Part shown: one piece after another, positions 9,080-41,756 of the stretch
Layout: each line of letters begins with the position of its first letter
How positions within the stretch are numbered: the first letter of the stretch is position 1
Source of the DNA: Bacteroidota bacterium
Lineage (GTDB): Bacteria; Bacteroidota; Ignavibacteria; Ignavibacteriales; Melioribacteraceae
NCBI GenBank assembly: GCA_018829205.1
Contig: JAHJUE010000007.1
Span: forward strand, 1 to 64,000
Direction of reading: 5' to 3'
Length of the DNA: 64,000 nucleotides
The notes under the pieces: model-generated
What the model saw: only the letters and a program-made list of their open reading frames with translations
Database searches by the model: none
Told to the model about the DNA's origin: nothing
Position numbers and translations under genes: made by a program

Positions 9080-9487
9080 CTATTCTACTTTAATTCCGGA
9101 TTTAGATTCCAAAGTTTTAATTAAAGTATCCATTAAAACATCATTTTGAACAGGCTTGGTTAAAAAGACATCTACTCCGGCATTGTACGCGTTGTCTTTA
9201 TCTCTTTGGAAAGCGTGTGCAGATAATCCAACAACCGGCAGATCTTTATACTCAGCCATTTCACGGATTTCTTTTGTTAATTGAAGTCCGTCTTTTTTAC
9301 CGCGCAGCGATATATCCATCAAAATAATGTCAAACTTAGCGTTGTTTAATTTTTCATAAAAGGTTTCAGAGGAATCGCAGATTTCCAGATTAAATTTTCT
9401 TTTTAAAAAAATCTGAAGGAATTTCTGATTTTCGTAATCATCTTCTACAACAAGCAAGTTAGGTTTTTTGCTAATTTCTGAACTCAT
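9080..9487 (-). CDS. Single-domain response regulator (receiver only)
   Basis: This 135-residue protein is a CheY-like receiver with no output domain. Acidic residues D16/D17, phospho-acceptor D58 (in ILMDIS), switch S89 (in GLSAHAF) and K111 (in FLTKP) are all present, so it should be phosphorylatable. It probably works by protein-protein contact in a phosphorelay. No kinase is adjacent; the only histidine kinase in the window is about 28 kb away. It lies just downstream of carB on the same strand but is probably functionally unrelated. Confidence 0.9.
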   Translation of the reverse strand: MSSEISKKPNLLVVEDDYENQKFLQIFLKRKFNLEICDSSETFYEKLNNAKFDIILMDISLRGKKDGLQLTKEIREMAEYKDLPVVGLSAHAFQRDKDNAYNAGVDVFLTKPVQNDVLMDTLIKTLESKSGIKVE

Positions 9488-36567: not shown

Positions 36568-37041
36568 ATGAATAACCTATTCAAATTATTCGTTCTTTTT
36601 TTGTTAGTCTCAGCAAGTTTTGTCGGCGCAAAAGGTAAATACGGAGTTATCGGAAAAGTCTATACTGCCGAAAGAGCATTGGAGTTATACGGTCCGGTAC
36701 AAAAATCTATAGAAATGGATAAAAGTGATTTAATAGCAATGCTTGATCAATGCGAAAATTATATGATGTTCAAAATTAAAAACAATGAAGTTGTAATTGC
36801 CGACGACAATAGAAACGTACTTACAAGCAACAAAATATATTTAACAAGCAGCATCCTTACCGTAGTTTCAAGAAATGATGCTATAAGTGAAAATGAGAAA
36901 TTGAATCTTGTTAGTAAAAATAAAGTAATGGACATTATTAATAGTGAAAATTCGGACAGAGTAAAATTTGAAATCAGGGAAACTATACAAACTATTAGTT
37001 CTACATTGATGGTTTTAGATTTTATACTTCAGTCTAGATAA
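36568..37041 (+). CDS. Secreted protein of unknown function upstream of the seven-helix array
   Basis: This 157-residue protein has a signal peptide (hydrophobic LFVLFLLVSASFVGA, cut before KGKYG). The mature part is about 135 residues, mixed charge, with one Cys. It seems alpha/beta and has no known motif. Segments such as KVYTAERALELYGPVQKSIEM and IRETIQTISSTLMVLDFIL are amphipathic helices. AAAGGGG lies about 6 bases upstream of the ATG. It lies 63 bases before the first seven-helix gene on the same strand, so it may be an envelope partner of that array; this is inference. Confidence 0.7.
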   Translation: MNNLFKLFVLFLLVSASFVGAKGKYGVIGKVYTAERALELYGPVQKSIEMDKSDLIAMLDQCENYMMFKIKNNEVVIADDNRNVLTSNKIYLTSSILTVVSRNDAISENEKLNLVSKNKVMDIINSENSDRVKFEIRETIQTISSTLMVLDFILQSR

Positions 37042-37104: not shown

Positions 37105-37686
37105 ATGTATAATTTGTCAATATTAGAAATTCTGCTTTATTCGAGCCTAATAGTTTGGATCTTCCCCGTAATAAGACAATATCGGGGAAGAACCTTTTTC
37201 ATATTTCTTGTTATCGCCTTAGGTGACCCAATTACGATCTTACTTTCTATTCTTTTTAATATCAATTTAGGCCCCTTTTCTCCTTTATTTACTAGTTTTG
37301 TTTTAGCTTTAGTTGTTTTATTTAGTATTAAGGAGCCAAATAATATTATATTTTATATAATATTTTATTGTGTTTGTCTTTTTTTGCCTTTGTTAAGTGT
37401 TAATTATAAATATTATTATTTTTCAATGATTGTATTACATGTTTTTATATTTTATCAAATTTTGATATTTTTTATTAAGAATAATATAAGTGAAAAATCA
37501 ATAAATATTTTTTACATTATATTTTTGCTTTATGAACTGTTAAATATATTTAAGGTGAGCAACCTTGTTATTGGGGTTACAAATGCTTATGAATATCATG
37601 CTCTTACTTCAATCTTTCAAGTCGCGCTTGGACTCTACTTTTCAATCTTTAGAGAAAACAGCCCCAGAAACTTTATTAAGCTTTGA
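37105..37686 (+). CDS. Seven-helix membrane protein P1 (first of five tandem paralogues)
   Basis: This 193-residue protein has seven hydrophobic helices. The positive-inside pattern predicts the N-terminus outside and C-terminus in the cytoplasm. Features shared with P2-P5 are (I/V)W.FP..(R/K)QY at the first loop, DPI in helix 2, a Pro-rich start of helix 3 (GPFSPL), LLNIFKV in helix 6 and the tail Q...G.YFSI.(R/K)E.SP(R/K)N. I do not recognise the family. Its last 100 bases overlap the histidine kinase frame, and its stop reads CTT TGA, where a +1 slip would enter that frame. It is the only array member with an ATG start. Confidence 0.8.
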   Translation: MYNLSILEILLYSSLIVWIFPVIRQYRGRTFFIFLVIALGDPITILLSILFNINLGPFSPLFTSFVLALVVLFSIKEPNNIIFYIIFYCVCLFLPLLSVNYKYYYFSMIVLHVFIFYQILIFFIKNNISEKSINIFYIIFLLYELLNIFKVSNLVIGVTNAYEYHALTSIFQVALGLYFSIFRENSPRNFIKL

Positions 37687-38866
37687 AAATCCTATATTTC
37701 TCTCACTTATACTAATTGTTGTTATTTTATCAATAATAATAATTTATTATAAATTTGTTATAATTCCTCTAAAAATAAAATTTGTTGAAGAGAAGCAGGC
37801 GCTTCAGATGCAGCATTCTGAAATGATGGCTCTTTTTACAGAATTATCCCCCGACCCTGTTATTAGATGCGATATTTCAGGGAAAATTCTTTTATCTAAT
37901 GAAACCGCGAATGATATTTTTAGAAAAAAAGTATTAATCGGCGAATATATCGAAAATGTTTTCCCCATAATTAAAAATTTTGATATAGAAAAAGTAATTG
38001 ATTACGGCTTAATTAAAAATTTTGAACATAGCGTTGATGGTAAGCATTTTCAGTTTGTTGTCGCCGGAGTGCCGAAGTACAGCGCTATTCAGATTTACGG
38101 ACGCGATATTTCCGCGCTTAAAACCACCCAGCAGGATTTAAAGACTGCATTGTCAAAAGCTAAAGCGGCTACTAAATTAAAAGAGGAATTTCTTTCCCGG
38201 ATTTCGCATGAAATAAGATCACCTCTTGTTTCTATTCAAGGCTACAGCGAATTGTTAAAATCTCAGTCGAATGATTTCAGTCCCGAATTCCAGGGTATTT
38301 TTCAATCAATTGAAAACAACAGTAAAAGATTATATAGAACTGTAGAACTGATTTTAAATATGTCGCAAATACAGACTGGCAGTTATGAAAATTCCTATAA
38401 AGAAGTAAATATTTTTAACGTTGTAGATAGAACTTACAGAGAATTTAAATCACTGGCAGAAGAGAACAAACTGTCTTTCACTTTTGAATCAAAGATTGAC
38501 CCAAATACTAATATTTTTGCCGATGAATATTCGGTCAGTCAAATTGTTGTTAATCTTATTGATAATTCGTTCAAATATACTAGAGAAGGGAAAATTTCTC
38601 TTTTATTATATAAAGAAATGAACTTTATTAAAATTACAATTGAGGATACGGGCGTGGGAATTTCCGAAAAATATTTGGATAATCTCTTCCAGCCGTTTTC
38701 ACAAGAGTATTCGGGATACACAAGACCTTACGACGGTACAGGCTTGGGCTTAGCTTTGGTTAAAAGTTTTGTAGATTTGAACGAAGCAAAAATAGAAGTT
38801 AAAAGTGAAATTAACAGCGGAAGTAAATTTACCGTTACTTTTGATGAATTGTCAAAATCCGATTAA
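37583..38866 (+). CDS. PAS-containing sensor histidine kinase overlapping P1
   Basis: The kinase has one clear membrane helix (about residues 38-58), a PAS-like domain (about 70-180, ELSPDPVIRCDISGKIL), a HisKA domain with phospho-His H209 in SRISHEIRSPL, and an HATPase domain (N-box NLIDNSFKY; DTGVGIS; GTGLGLALV). It autophosphorylates and donates to an unknown regulator; none is adjacent. The start is uncertain. In-frame starts (TTG 37565, ATG 37583, 37589, 37598) all lie inside P1. Either the kinase initiates there by coupling, or it is made as a P1 fusion by +1 frameshifting at 37681. In the overlap the P1 frame is the conserved one, so the first 30 or so kinase residues may be a by-product. 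Confidence 0.85.
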   Translation: MLMNIMLLLQSFKSRLDSTFQSLEKTAPETLLSFENPIFLSLILIVVILSIIIIYYKFVIIPLKIKFVEEKQALQMQHSEMMALFTELSPDPVIRCDISGKILLSNETANDIFRKKVLIGEYIENVFPIIKNFDIEKVIDYGLIKNFEHSVDGKHFQFVVAGVPKYSAIQIYGRDISALKTTQQDLKTALSKAKAATKLKEEFLSRISHEIRSPLVSIQGYSELLKSQSNDFSPEFQGIFQSIENNSKRLYRTVELILNMSQIQTGSYENSYKEVNIFNVVDRTYREFKSLAEENKLSFTFESKIDPNTNIFADEYSVSQIVVNLIDNSFKYTREGKISLLLYKEMNFIKITIEDTGVGISEKYLDNLFQPFSQEYSGYTRPYDGTGLGLALVKSFVDLNEAKIEVKSEINSGSKFTVTFDELSKSD

Positions 38867-39027
38867 TTGGAAATAATATAATTCAATTAAATTATATTAA
38901 TTACATCCTATTCTTTTTAATCGCTCAATTCTTTTTATTTATTACTAATTATGCAAGACGTAATAGATAATAATTAATATTAATAAAACTTTTAAATGAA
39001 TATTGCTTGTTGTGAGAGGAACTAATC

Positions 39028-39612
39028 TTGTATCCTAATATCCCATGGATCGTATATATTAGTCCAATAATCTGGGTGTTTCCTGCATTTAAACAATACA
39101 GAGAAAAATTCTTTTTATTTTTTTTAATTATTGCCGTGGGTGACCCAATTGGACTAACTATTATATATATTCTAAAAAATAATATCGGTCCAATTCAACC
39201 GCTAATAGTAAGTTTTTTATTAGTGATTAGTGTAATAAATACAGAAAAATTAAAAAATAATTGGTTTGTTATTATTATAGTTCTAAGCACAATTTTTATG
39301 ATTCCTATAATTTACGGACATAGCAATGCATATTATATAGTTATTATTCTATTTCATTTAATGATATTTTATAAAATTCTGATATTATTTATTAAAAAAT
39401 ATTTAGAAACAAGGAATATTGATTTGTTTTATGTTTTAATTATGCTTTATATTTTACTCAATATTTTCAAAGTGAATGGCCTAGTTTTTCAGTTTGAAAA
39501 TGCTAAGTTATATCATTTTGTGACCACAGTTTTCCAAACCGCAATAGGTATATATTTTTCATTAATTAAGGAAAGTTCTCCCAAAAACTTAATTAGAATT
39601 AATACATTATAA
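39028..39612 (+). CDS. Seven-helix membrane protein P2 (TTG start)
   Basis: This 194-residue paralogue of P1 has the same seven helices, the first loop KQYREK, GDPI in helix 2, GPIQPL before helix 3, LLNIFKV in helix 6 and tail SLIKESSPKN. The only possible start is TTG at 39028 (no ATG or GTG nearby in frame) with AGAGGA 7 bases upstream. TTG initiation usually lowers yield. It stands 161 bases after the kinase. Function unknown; a sensor or partner for the kinase is an inference. Confidence 0.8.
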   Translation: MYPNIPWIVYISPIIWVFPAFKQYREKFFLFFLIIAVGDPIGLTIIYILKNNIGPIQPLIVSFLLVISVINTEKLKNNWFVIIIVLSTIFMIPIIYGHSNAYYIVIILFHLMIFYKILILFIKKYLETRNIDLFYVLIMLYILLNIFKVNGLVFQFENAKLYHFVTTVFQTAIGIYFSLIKESSPKNLIRINTL

Positions 39613-39743
39613 TTATCATGATTTTTCTTGTTTCTATATTTGACTAATTTATTTTCCCGATGCACAAATAAAGTTATGTTCATAAATCTATTTTAAACAT
39701 TTGAGTTGTTTTGGATATTATTCTTTAAAAGGATTGGATCATT

Positions 39744-40325
39744 TTGTCAAACATTCATATCATCCAAATTATTAGTCAAATTATATGGTTTTTCCCGGCA
39801 TTACGCCAATATAATGAAAAGTTATTTTATTTCTTTTTAGTACTTGCATTAGCAGACCCTATAAGTTTATTGTTTTTGTTTATTACAAAAATTCATCCCG
39901 CTCCGTTTTTCCCATTAGTATCAAGTTTAATCCTTGTATTAACTGTTATTGGAAAGGAAAAATTAAAAACTTATTCATTTCATATAGTAGTTACTTATTT
40001 TATTCTCATTCTTATTCCAATAATTATAGGAAGCAGGAGTTTTTATTATCTGCTTTTTTCATTACTTCATATATTTGTTATTTATAATATATTCGGATTA
40101 TTTATTAAGAGTTATTTAAAGGAGAACGTAATTAATATTTTTTATGTTTTAATAATATTATACGAACTTCTTAATATATTTAAAGTACTTAATATAGTTT
40201 TTCAATTTCCCAATGTTTCTCTTTTTCTTAATACGACACTATTTTTTCAAGTTATTCTTGGACTATATTTTTCAATAGTTAAAGAAAGCTCTCCTAAAAA
40301 CTTTTTTAGATTCAAAACCTTGTGA
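39744..40325 (+). CDS. Seven-helix membrane protein P3 (TTG start)
   Basis: This 193-residue paralogue has ADPI in helix 2, PAPFFPL before helix 3, ELLNIFKV in helix 6 and tail SIVKESSPKNFFRFKTL. The start is TTG at 39744 with GGAT 4-5 bases upstream. Its last 50 or so bases and the following 130 bases are nearly identical to those of P4, so the P4/P5 duplication crossed over in this 3' end. Confidence 0.8.
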   Translation: MSNIHIIQIISQIIWFFPALRQYNEKLFYFFLVLALADPISLLFLFITKIHPAPFFPLVSSLILVLTVIGKEKLKTYSFHIVVTYFILILIPIIIGSRSFYYLLFSLLHIFVIYNIFGLFIKSYLKENVINIFYVLIILYELLNIFKVLNIVFQFPNVSLFLNTTLFFQVILGLYFSIVKESSPKNFFRFKTL

Positions 40326-41170
40326 GTTTCAGAACAACATTGTAATTAATTTCTATTTAATAGTATTTATCGACAAACAGATTTAAACCTAAGACTTTAG
40401 AATTGATTTTAAATAATTGATATCTTATAATTAATTCAAAAGTTGAGGTTAAGCCATTTATCCCGGTGTCCATTTTTTAATTTATCTAAGTCCGATTGTA
40501 TGGATTTTCCCTGTGTTTCGTCAATACAAGGAGAATTTATTTTATCTATTTCTTGTACTCGCATTCTTTGATCCTATTGGAGTTATGTTTTGGTTATTCT
40601 TCAGCATCAATACAGCTCCTTTATTGCCCTTGTTAGTTAGCTTATCATTAGTACTAACTCTTCAAAATAAAAATAGTTTATTGAAATATAAATGGGCCGT
40701 AATTACCTCCTTTATTTCATTAGTTTTAATAACTATTCTTATAGGGAACAAAAGTTTATTTTACATGCAAATAGTTGGTCTTCATATTTATATTGTTTAT
40801 AAAATATTCATTTTATTTACAAAAAATAGTATATACGAAAAAGGGATTAATGTTTTTTATATATTATTATTGTTTTACGAATTGATGAATTTATTTAAAG
40901 TTTTTAATTATTTTTTCGCTTTTAATAATTTTTTCAAATACTCAACTATTACATCAATTTTCCAGATTACAATTGGAATATATTTTTCAATTGTTAAAGA
41001 AAGCTCGCCTAAAAACTTTTTTAGATTCAAAACCTTGTGAGTTTCAGAACAACATTGTAATTAATTTCTAATTAATAGTATTTAACGACAAACAGATTTA
41101 AACCTAAGACTTTAGAATTGATTTTAAATAATTGATATCTTATAATTAATCCAAAAGTTGAGGGTTAAGC
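40311..41170 (+). repeat. Tandem duplication, 715-bp unit (P4 and P5 with their leaders)
   Basis: The stop codons of P3 and P4 (40323-40325 and 41038-41040) are 715 bases apart and are followed by near-identical 130-base spacers, differing by about three substitutions and one inserted G. The duplicated unit is one spacer plus one seven-helix gene. The spacers are more alike than the two coding regions, whose proteins are about 85% identical by eye. Confidence 0.8.
40456..41040 (+). CDS. Seven-helix membrane protein P4 (probable ATT start)
   Basis: The full homologous frame begins at ATT 40456, two codons after an in-frame TAA at 40450. It gives 194 residues, exactly the P2 length. The N-terminus IYPGVHFLIYLSPIVWIFP aligns with P2 MYPNIPWIVYISPIIWVFP, so ATT stands where P2 has TTG. 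GAGG lies 7 bases upstream. No ATG, GTG or TTG exists until GTG 40513, which would delete helix 1. Helix motifs (FDPI, APLLPL, ELMNLFKV, tail SIVKESSPKN) are intact. It may be a poorly expressed gene or one that lost its start. Confidence 0.65.
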   Translation: MYPGVHFLIYLSPIVWIFPVFRQYKENLFYLFLVLAFFDPIGVMFWLFFSINTAPLLPLLVSLSLVLTLQNKNSLLKYKWAVITSFISLVLITILIGNKSLFYMQIVGLHIYIVYKIFILFTKNSIYEKGINVFYILLLFYELMNLFKVFNYFFAFNNFFKYSTITSIFQITIGIYFSIVKESSPKNFFRFKTL

Positions 41171-41171
41171 C

Positions 41172-41756
41172 ATTTATCCTGATGTCCATTTTTTAGTATT
41201 TCTAAGTCCAATTGTCTGGGCTTTCCCTGTATTCCGTCAATACAAGGAGAATTTATTTTATCTATTTCTTGTACTTGCATTCTTTGATCCTATTGGAATT
41301 ATGTTTTGGTTATTATTTAAAATCAATATAGCTCCGCTATTGCCCTGGTTAGCTAGTTTATCATTAGCACTAACTGTTCAAAATAAAAATACATTATTGA
41401 AATATAAATGGTCTGTAATTACCTCCTTTATTTCATTAGTTTTTATAACAATTCTTATAGGGAACAAAAACTTATTTTATATGCAAATAGTTGTTCTTCA
41501 TATTTATATTGTTTACAAAATATTCATTTTATTTACAAGAAATAGTATTTACGAAAAAGGGATTAATGTTTTCTATGTATTATTATTGTTTTACGAATTG
41601 ATGAATTTATTTAAAATGTTTAATTACTTTTTCACTTTTAATGACTATTATAAATACTTAACCATAACATCAATTTTCCAAATTACGATTGGAATTTATT
41701 TTTCAATTGTTAAAGAAAGCTCGCCAAAAAACATAATAAAGTTTAAAGTCGTATAA
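41172..41756 (+). CDS. Seven-helix membrane protein P5 (probable ATT start)
   Basis: The frame from ATT 41172 gives 194 residues, the same length as P4 and P2, starting IYPDVHFLVFLSPIVWAFP. GAGGG lies 7 bases upstream, and a TAA precedes at 41166. The next conventional start is ATG 41301, which would remove the first 43 residues, including helix 1 and most of helix 2. That frame stays open and alignable throughout, so the short version is probably not the real product. The body retains all family motifs, with tail SIVKESSPKN followed by a diverged end. P5 is the product of the tandem duplication with P4. Confidence 0.65.
   Translation: MYPDVHFLVFLSPIVWAFPVFRQYKENLFYLFLVLAFFDPIGIMFWLLFKINIAPLLPWLASLSLALTVQNKNTLLKYKWSVITSFISLVFITILIGNKNLFYMQIVVLHIYIVYKIFILFTRNSIYEKGINVFYVLLLFYELMNLFKMFNYFFTFNDYYKYLTITSIFQITIGIYFSIVKESSPKNIIKFKVV

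Follow-up and report, generated by a model that had tools for sequence, protein, structure and literature searches.

The array of five seven-helix membrane proteins (7TM; P1 to P5) in the 64,000-nt stretch of Ignavibacteriales DNA analysed here (the window) probably arose by lineage-specific expansion of a two-component module with a split receptor. As judged from conserved gene content, the module is a gene set that recurs within the Ignavibacteriales and comprises an exported protein (EXP), a predicted N-out/C-in 7TM protein, a kinase without an extracellular sensor and a response regulator. The split-receptor reading is supported by the source genome itself, since EXP, 7TM and a kinase whose N-terminus is the same occur together at two of its loci. 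The features of the window that bear on this reading are as follows.

9080-9487, minus strand: orphan single-domain receiver, beside carbamoyl-phosphate synthase genes
36568-37041, plus strand: EXP, exported protein of ~157 aa with a signal peptide, directly before P1; ends LDFILQSR, without CPPxC
37105-37686, plus strand: P1, seven-helix membrane protein, complete ORF
37565-38866, plus strand: sensor histidine kinase (TM-PAS-HisKA-HATPase), starting inside P1 in the +1 frame
39028-39612, plus strand: P2, stand-alone 7TM paralogue, complete, TTG start
39744-40325, plus strand: P3, stand-alone 7TM paralogue, complete, TTG start
40326-40455, plus strand: P3-P4 spacer, ~97% identical to the P4-P5 spacer
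40456-41040, plus strand: P4, stand-alone 7TM paralogue, complete only if read from an ATT codon
41041-41171, plus strand: P4-P5 spacer, ~97% identical to the P3-P4 spacer
41172-41756, plus strand: P5, stand-alone 7TM paralogue, complete only if read from an ATT codon

Distribution of the module

We searched 97 related genomes for 7TM and EXP and fetched 78 loci. 7TM was found in 56 of the genomes and EXP in 60; both occur in 54, 7TM alone in 2, EXP alone in 6 and neither in 35, a co-occurrence with a Fisher p of 8e-18, uncorrected for phylogeny. EXP adjoins the 7TM gene in 59 of the 78 loci, and in 57 there is a neighbouring regulator or receiver. The sequence-only reading had linked the family to kinases and would have been contradicted by homologues that never occur near them; in 65 of 78 cases the homologous locus adjoins a kinase whose TM-PAS input is the same. 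EXP and/or the module kinase is present in 73 of the 78 loci, and both are present in 51. The loci with neither are L077, L082, L105, L113 and L122; in L082 an EXP tail lies where the contig is cut off.

The usual locus in relatives has a single 7TM copy and a receiver. The syntenic order there is pyruvate kinase, radical-SAM protein, EXP, 7TM, kinase and single receiver, with ahcY and metK downstream of the receiver on the opposite strand; these flanking genes were named from the window sequence and from matching lengths. Across 395 genomes of the phylum, strong 7TM matches were found only within the window's order, with three marginal ones outside it, and the named genomes with matches are Stygiobacter, Melioribacter and other Ignavibacteria. 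A search of plasmids gave no match to the 7TM family. No common target genes were found among the module neighbours, which vary in kind and include just one frequent family, the receivers, and the open full-text literature yielded no description of such a module.

A seven-helix family with a cytoplasmic C-terminus

The five copies had been described as sharing a seven-helix plan and motifs; they are indeed intact paralogues, and (R/K)QY, DPI, LLNIFK and YFSI.(R/K)E.SP(K/R)N all align across P1 to P5. Similarity within the array is far above chance (E down to 1e-40), with 41% identity to P1 for P2 to P5 and 85% between P4 and P5. An AlphaFold2 model, for which an alignment of 95 homologues was used, reproduces the seven helices (mean pLDDT 95, pTM 0.89). 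The basic residues of the family sit in loops 1, 3 and 5 and in the C-tail, and the 95 homologues have 1.5-2.7 K+R per cytoplasmic segment versus 0.2-0.6 outside, in agreement with the N-out/C-in topology proposed from the window.

The family is also as unrecognised as the sequence-only reading had it: the 7TM proteins have no match in Pfam, NCBIfam or PHROGs, nor among PDB sequences. A transporter match, which would have spoken against a receptor, did not turn up in the family searches of the 7TM proteins. When the model was compared with PDB folds, the best match had a Z of 10.7 and an rmsd of 4.4 over 186 residues, where helical bundles can reach 13 by chance, and Foldseek returned E 0.45 or worse. 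The fold matches listed are nearly all GPCRs or rhodopsins; as these weak scores fall within the chance range of helical bundles, we do not claim a GPCR relationship from the model.

Conservation in the 7TM family is concentrated on the cytoplasmic half of helices 1-2 and on helices 6-7, a pattern that would suit a common output face. The conserved residues on the cytoplasmic side (W18, RQ, DP, Y143, K150 and F179) are retained in P2 to P5. Among the conserved columns, no residues stood out that separate 7TMs with EXP from those without.

Distant homologues at five loci are one-component fusions with a C-terminal LuxR/GerE DNA-binding domain:

L055, 964-1755: 7TM-LuxR/GerE fusion
L059, 12402-13232: 7TM-LuxR/GerE fusion
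L117, 8001-8852: 7TM-LuxR/GerE fusion
L209, 5672-6568: 7TM-LuxR/GerE fusion
L211, 5669-6580: 7TM-LuxR/GerE fusion

They match the 7TM family across the full seven-helix length (hhalign 98.7%, E 3e-16) and are the strongest evidence that the seven-helix part would be an input unit with a cytoplasmic C-terminus. The fused domain would place the 7TM C-terminus inside, and because distant homologues are fused to LuxR DNA-binding domains, the family is likely to signal to the cytoplasm.

The exported partner

The exported ORF that precedes the array is, to judge from its homologues, the partner family of the 7TM protein, a pairing absent from the sequence-only reading. EXP has no Pfam or NCBIfam match. 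Fold searches gave only weak sliding-clamp-like scores (Z 7.7), and a weak match to Pumilio among PDB sequences (E 0.0016) was judged to be chance. Its relatives in Ignavibacteria carry CPPxC at the extreme C-terminus, and their genes lie directly upstream of a 7TM gene. The matches numbered 67, of which 2 are N-terminal pieces of broken frames; among the remaining 65 full tails, 63 have CPPxC and one, in L106, has CLPLC, such that CxxxC is kept in 64, and the window copy alone is without a cysteine pair. Possible roles of the tail are those of a ligand, a redox switch or a metal site. A second EXP-7TM pair, on contig C5 of the source genome, follows a kinase and a response regulator of the LuxR type. 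With EXP and the 7TM protein, two unnamed families would be added to bacterial signalling, one a seven-helix receptor-like protein and the other its exported partner with a Cys tail.

EXP is not obligatory, because it is wanting directly upstream of 28 of the 89 non-window 7TM genes, and several kinase-regulator-7TM loci are entirely without it. Two of these EXP-less loci, L074 and L086, lie beside CcmB-type and ABC-transporter genes; the L074 neighbours are cytochrome c maturation-like by family search, and L068, L091, L044 and L204 have neighbours of comparable sizes and order. At L124 (6917-7729), a single ORF with two tandem EXP domains lies upstream of the 7TM gene. Four EXP genes without a detectable 7TM are followed by hydrophobic polytopic proteins of ~205-230 aa without a Pfam match, which may represent a second partner family or a very divergent one:

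L197, 5348-5962: polytopic protein after a 7TM-less EXP
L198, 5285-5923: polytopic protein after a 7TM-less EXP
L199, 6309-6995: polytopic protein after a 7TM-less EXP
L201, 1694-2332: polytopic protein after a 7TM-less EXP

Kinases, their shared input region and the missing receiver

The ORF after P1 had been read as a histidine kinase, and the domain searches bear this out (HisKA PF00512, 7e-14; HATPase PF02518, 7e-23; H-box SHEIRSP). It opens at 37565 (TTG), with in-frame ATGs at 37583, 37589 and 37598, and its N-terminus consists of a very short segment and then one TM, with no extracellular sensor domain. Module kinases are of two types, HisKA (window type) and HisKA_3 (C5 type), neither of which has an extracellular sensor domain. 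One input region precedes both types of transmitter, because the TM-linker-PAS profile of the HisKA type matches 42 of 42 HisKA_3-type kinases. Only three places in the source genome score high with this profile: the window, C5 and C17, where the kinase (L246:6559-7785) lies beside phenylacetate-degradation-like genes with neither EXP nor 7TM nearby. Both the LuxR fusions and the occurrence of two kinase cores behind one TM-PAS input suggest that the input unit is modular.

About 100 nt at the 3′ end of P1 (37565-37686) are shared with the kinase, which is read there in the +1 frame, and this overlap is conserved in most relatives, with a kinase-frame ATG inside the 7TM gene. P1 ends in CTT TGA, an RF2-like +1 context, and a +1 reading enters the kinase at an ENP motif. 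A programmed +1 frameshift between P1 and the kinase was set aside: in relatives the stop codon is TAG or TAA, and in most of them an in-frame kinase ATG lies upstream. Overlapping genes would be the simpler reading. A frameshift may still apply, since L078 and L093 are without any of the usual start codons for the kinase at the junction.

No response regulator lies beside the window kinase, and P2 to P5 occupy the receiver's place. Within the source genome, the orphan receiver at 9080-9487 is the closest to the post-kinase receiver of relatives (39% identity, 103 bits versus 60 for the next), and it may be the phosphorylation partner of the kinase. Its orthologues (63-92%) were found in 14 of 14 relatives checked and are linked to the module at 28-50 kb in several. 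Because some of these genomes also keep the module receiver, the gene at 9080-9487 is a paralogue and a candidate partner only.

Origin of the array

A tree of the 7TM genes places P1 as the orthologue of the single-copy gene at the syntenic locus. P1 to P5 are monophyletic and form a ladder, P1,(P2,(P3,(P4,P5))), in agreement with gene order; the clade neighbours the same-synteny gene of genome G024, and the divergent C5 copy also falls within it, on a long branch. On this phylogeny, the window array is a lineage-specific expansion in which P1 would have been duplicated stepwise into P2 to P5. The dN is below the dS for every 7TM pair where both were computable, with a dS of 0.34, a dN of 0.08 and a dN/dS of 0.23 for P4-P5, and P2 to P5 are, by these ratios, under purifying selection. 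The ~97% identity of the P3-P4 and P4-P5 spacers despite this dS suggests gene conversion or a constrained, possibly functional spacer; Rfam gave no match, spacers included. The ATT codons of P4 (40456) and P5 (41172) align with the TTG start of P2, and at the first ATG, GTG or TTG of either gene helix 1 or more would be lost.

G024 (L049) is the nearest relative at the locus; it too has no receiver, but its 7TM gene is single and its EXP has the tail CPPWC. Because the receiver is missing there while the 7TM gene is still single and the CPPWC tail is present, receiver loss probably preceded the expansion, and the EXP tail would have been lost later, in the order that we infer. 7TM arrays expanded several times, since those in L074, L075, L081 and L113 are each monophyletic; L204 has a further array, of three copies. 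Such repeated, independent expansions could serve as a natural test of the number of membrane receptors that can share one kinase.

The region had also been noted as AT-rich, and its GC content is 23-26% against 32-40%. A foreign origin on this ground was rejected: homologous 7TM genes are in every case AT-richer than the locus around them, 92 of them averaging 6.3 GC points below it, low GC is thus typical of the family, and AT-richness is therefore no evidence of foreign origin.

Relation to known systems

LiaFSR-type three-component systems, described from Firmicutes, have an intramembrane-sensing kinase controlled by a separately encoded membrane protein (PMC7191749). The module resembles them in combining a kinase without an extracellular sensing domain, a separate membrane protein and a response regulator in one locus. 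However, no exported protein with a Cys tail accompanies LiaFSR, the module kinase has a single TM and a PAS domain, and neither EXP nor 7TM showed a relationship to LiaF in Pfam or NCBIfam. RocA has seven membrane spans, is not the active kinase, and binds and modulates the histidine kinase CsrS in the membrane (PMC6635533). The likeness of RocA-CsrS to 7TM and kinase would be one of function; RocA has a cytoplasmic domain and comes from unrelated bacteria, and no exported partner is mentioned in the part of the description consulted (PMC6635533). By analogy, LiaFSR (PMC7191749) and RocA-CsrS (PMC6635533) would be the nearest functional counterparts of the module.

7TMR-DISM receptors (PF07695), which are also present in the window's order, likewise have an extracellular part, seven helices and an intracellular signalling output, but as one polypeptide, whereas the exported part here is a separate gene (36568-37041). 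The PF07695 profile matched neither P1 to P5 at E<=10 nor the 95 homologues at E<=1, it has no match anywhere in the source genome, and hhalign against the 7TM family gave a probability of 14%. HisKA_7TM (PF16927) is a seven-helix N-terminal region of kinases, but it is fused to the kinase and shows no similarity to P1 to P5, with no match in these proteins or the source genome and an hhalign probability of 0.4%. Because the module encodes its receptor, its periplasmic partner and its kinase in separate genes, each could be deleted or swapped alone.

Proposed mechanism and alternatives

In the split-receptor module, the 7TM protein would be the input unit and would switch the kinase by contact between helices within the membrane. 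EXP would probably modulate the 7TM protein from the periplasmic side, its CPPxC tail being the putative active element, and the kinase would then phosphorylate a separate receiver. In our preferred reading, the extra copies P2 to P5 would give one or more kinases a more diverse input.

The sequence-only reading had offered, as one possibility, an array of receptors in which several stand-alone copies, here four, feed one kinase or compete for it. Its receptor part stands, in that the seven-helix family is unrecognised, the topology is receptor-like, kinases are associated and the LuxR fusions show signalling use. Service to one kinase is possible but doubtful: the array does adjoin one kinase and P2 to P5 retain the conserved cytoplasmic-side residues, but three kinases in the source genome have the same input region, and the P2-P5 pool therefore need not serve only one of them.

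We also considered a minimal (~190 aa) GPCR-like receptor, encoded apart from its kinase and switched by the CxxxC tail of the exported partner, with output via an exchangeable kinase core or a fused DNA-binding domain. This seems rather unlikely to us; if it were true, receptor arrays would let several inputs converge on few kinases.

Alternatively, the 7TM protein might process, export or modify EXP, as AgrB does AgrD, with the kinase sensing the product itself. Such a role would suit EXP-7TM being the tightest pair, the short conserved C-terminal cysteine tail on EXP, and the four 7TM-less EXP genes that precede other hydrophobic polytopic proteins of ~205-230 aa. We consider it improbable, however: P1 to P5 and their homologues match no AgrB-type family in Pfam and no peptidase or transporter family, the 7TM family is fused to DNA-binding domains, the module kinases have no extracellular domain with which to sense a product, and several kinase-regulator-7TM loci have no EXP at all.

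Decay could account for a window locus without receiver and CPPxC tail. That the array is largely neutral or decaying, with tandem duplication following both losses, fits these absences and the non-standard ATT starts of P4 and P5, but we give it little weight, as the five 7TM ORFs and the kinase are all intact, the P4-P5 dN/dS is 0.23 with dN below dS wherever both were computable, and similar arrays arose independently in L074, L075, L081 and L113, with a further array, of three copies, in L204.
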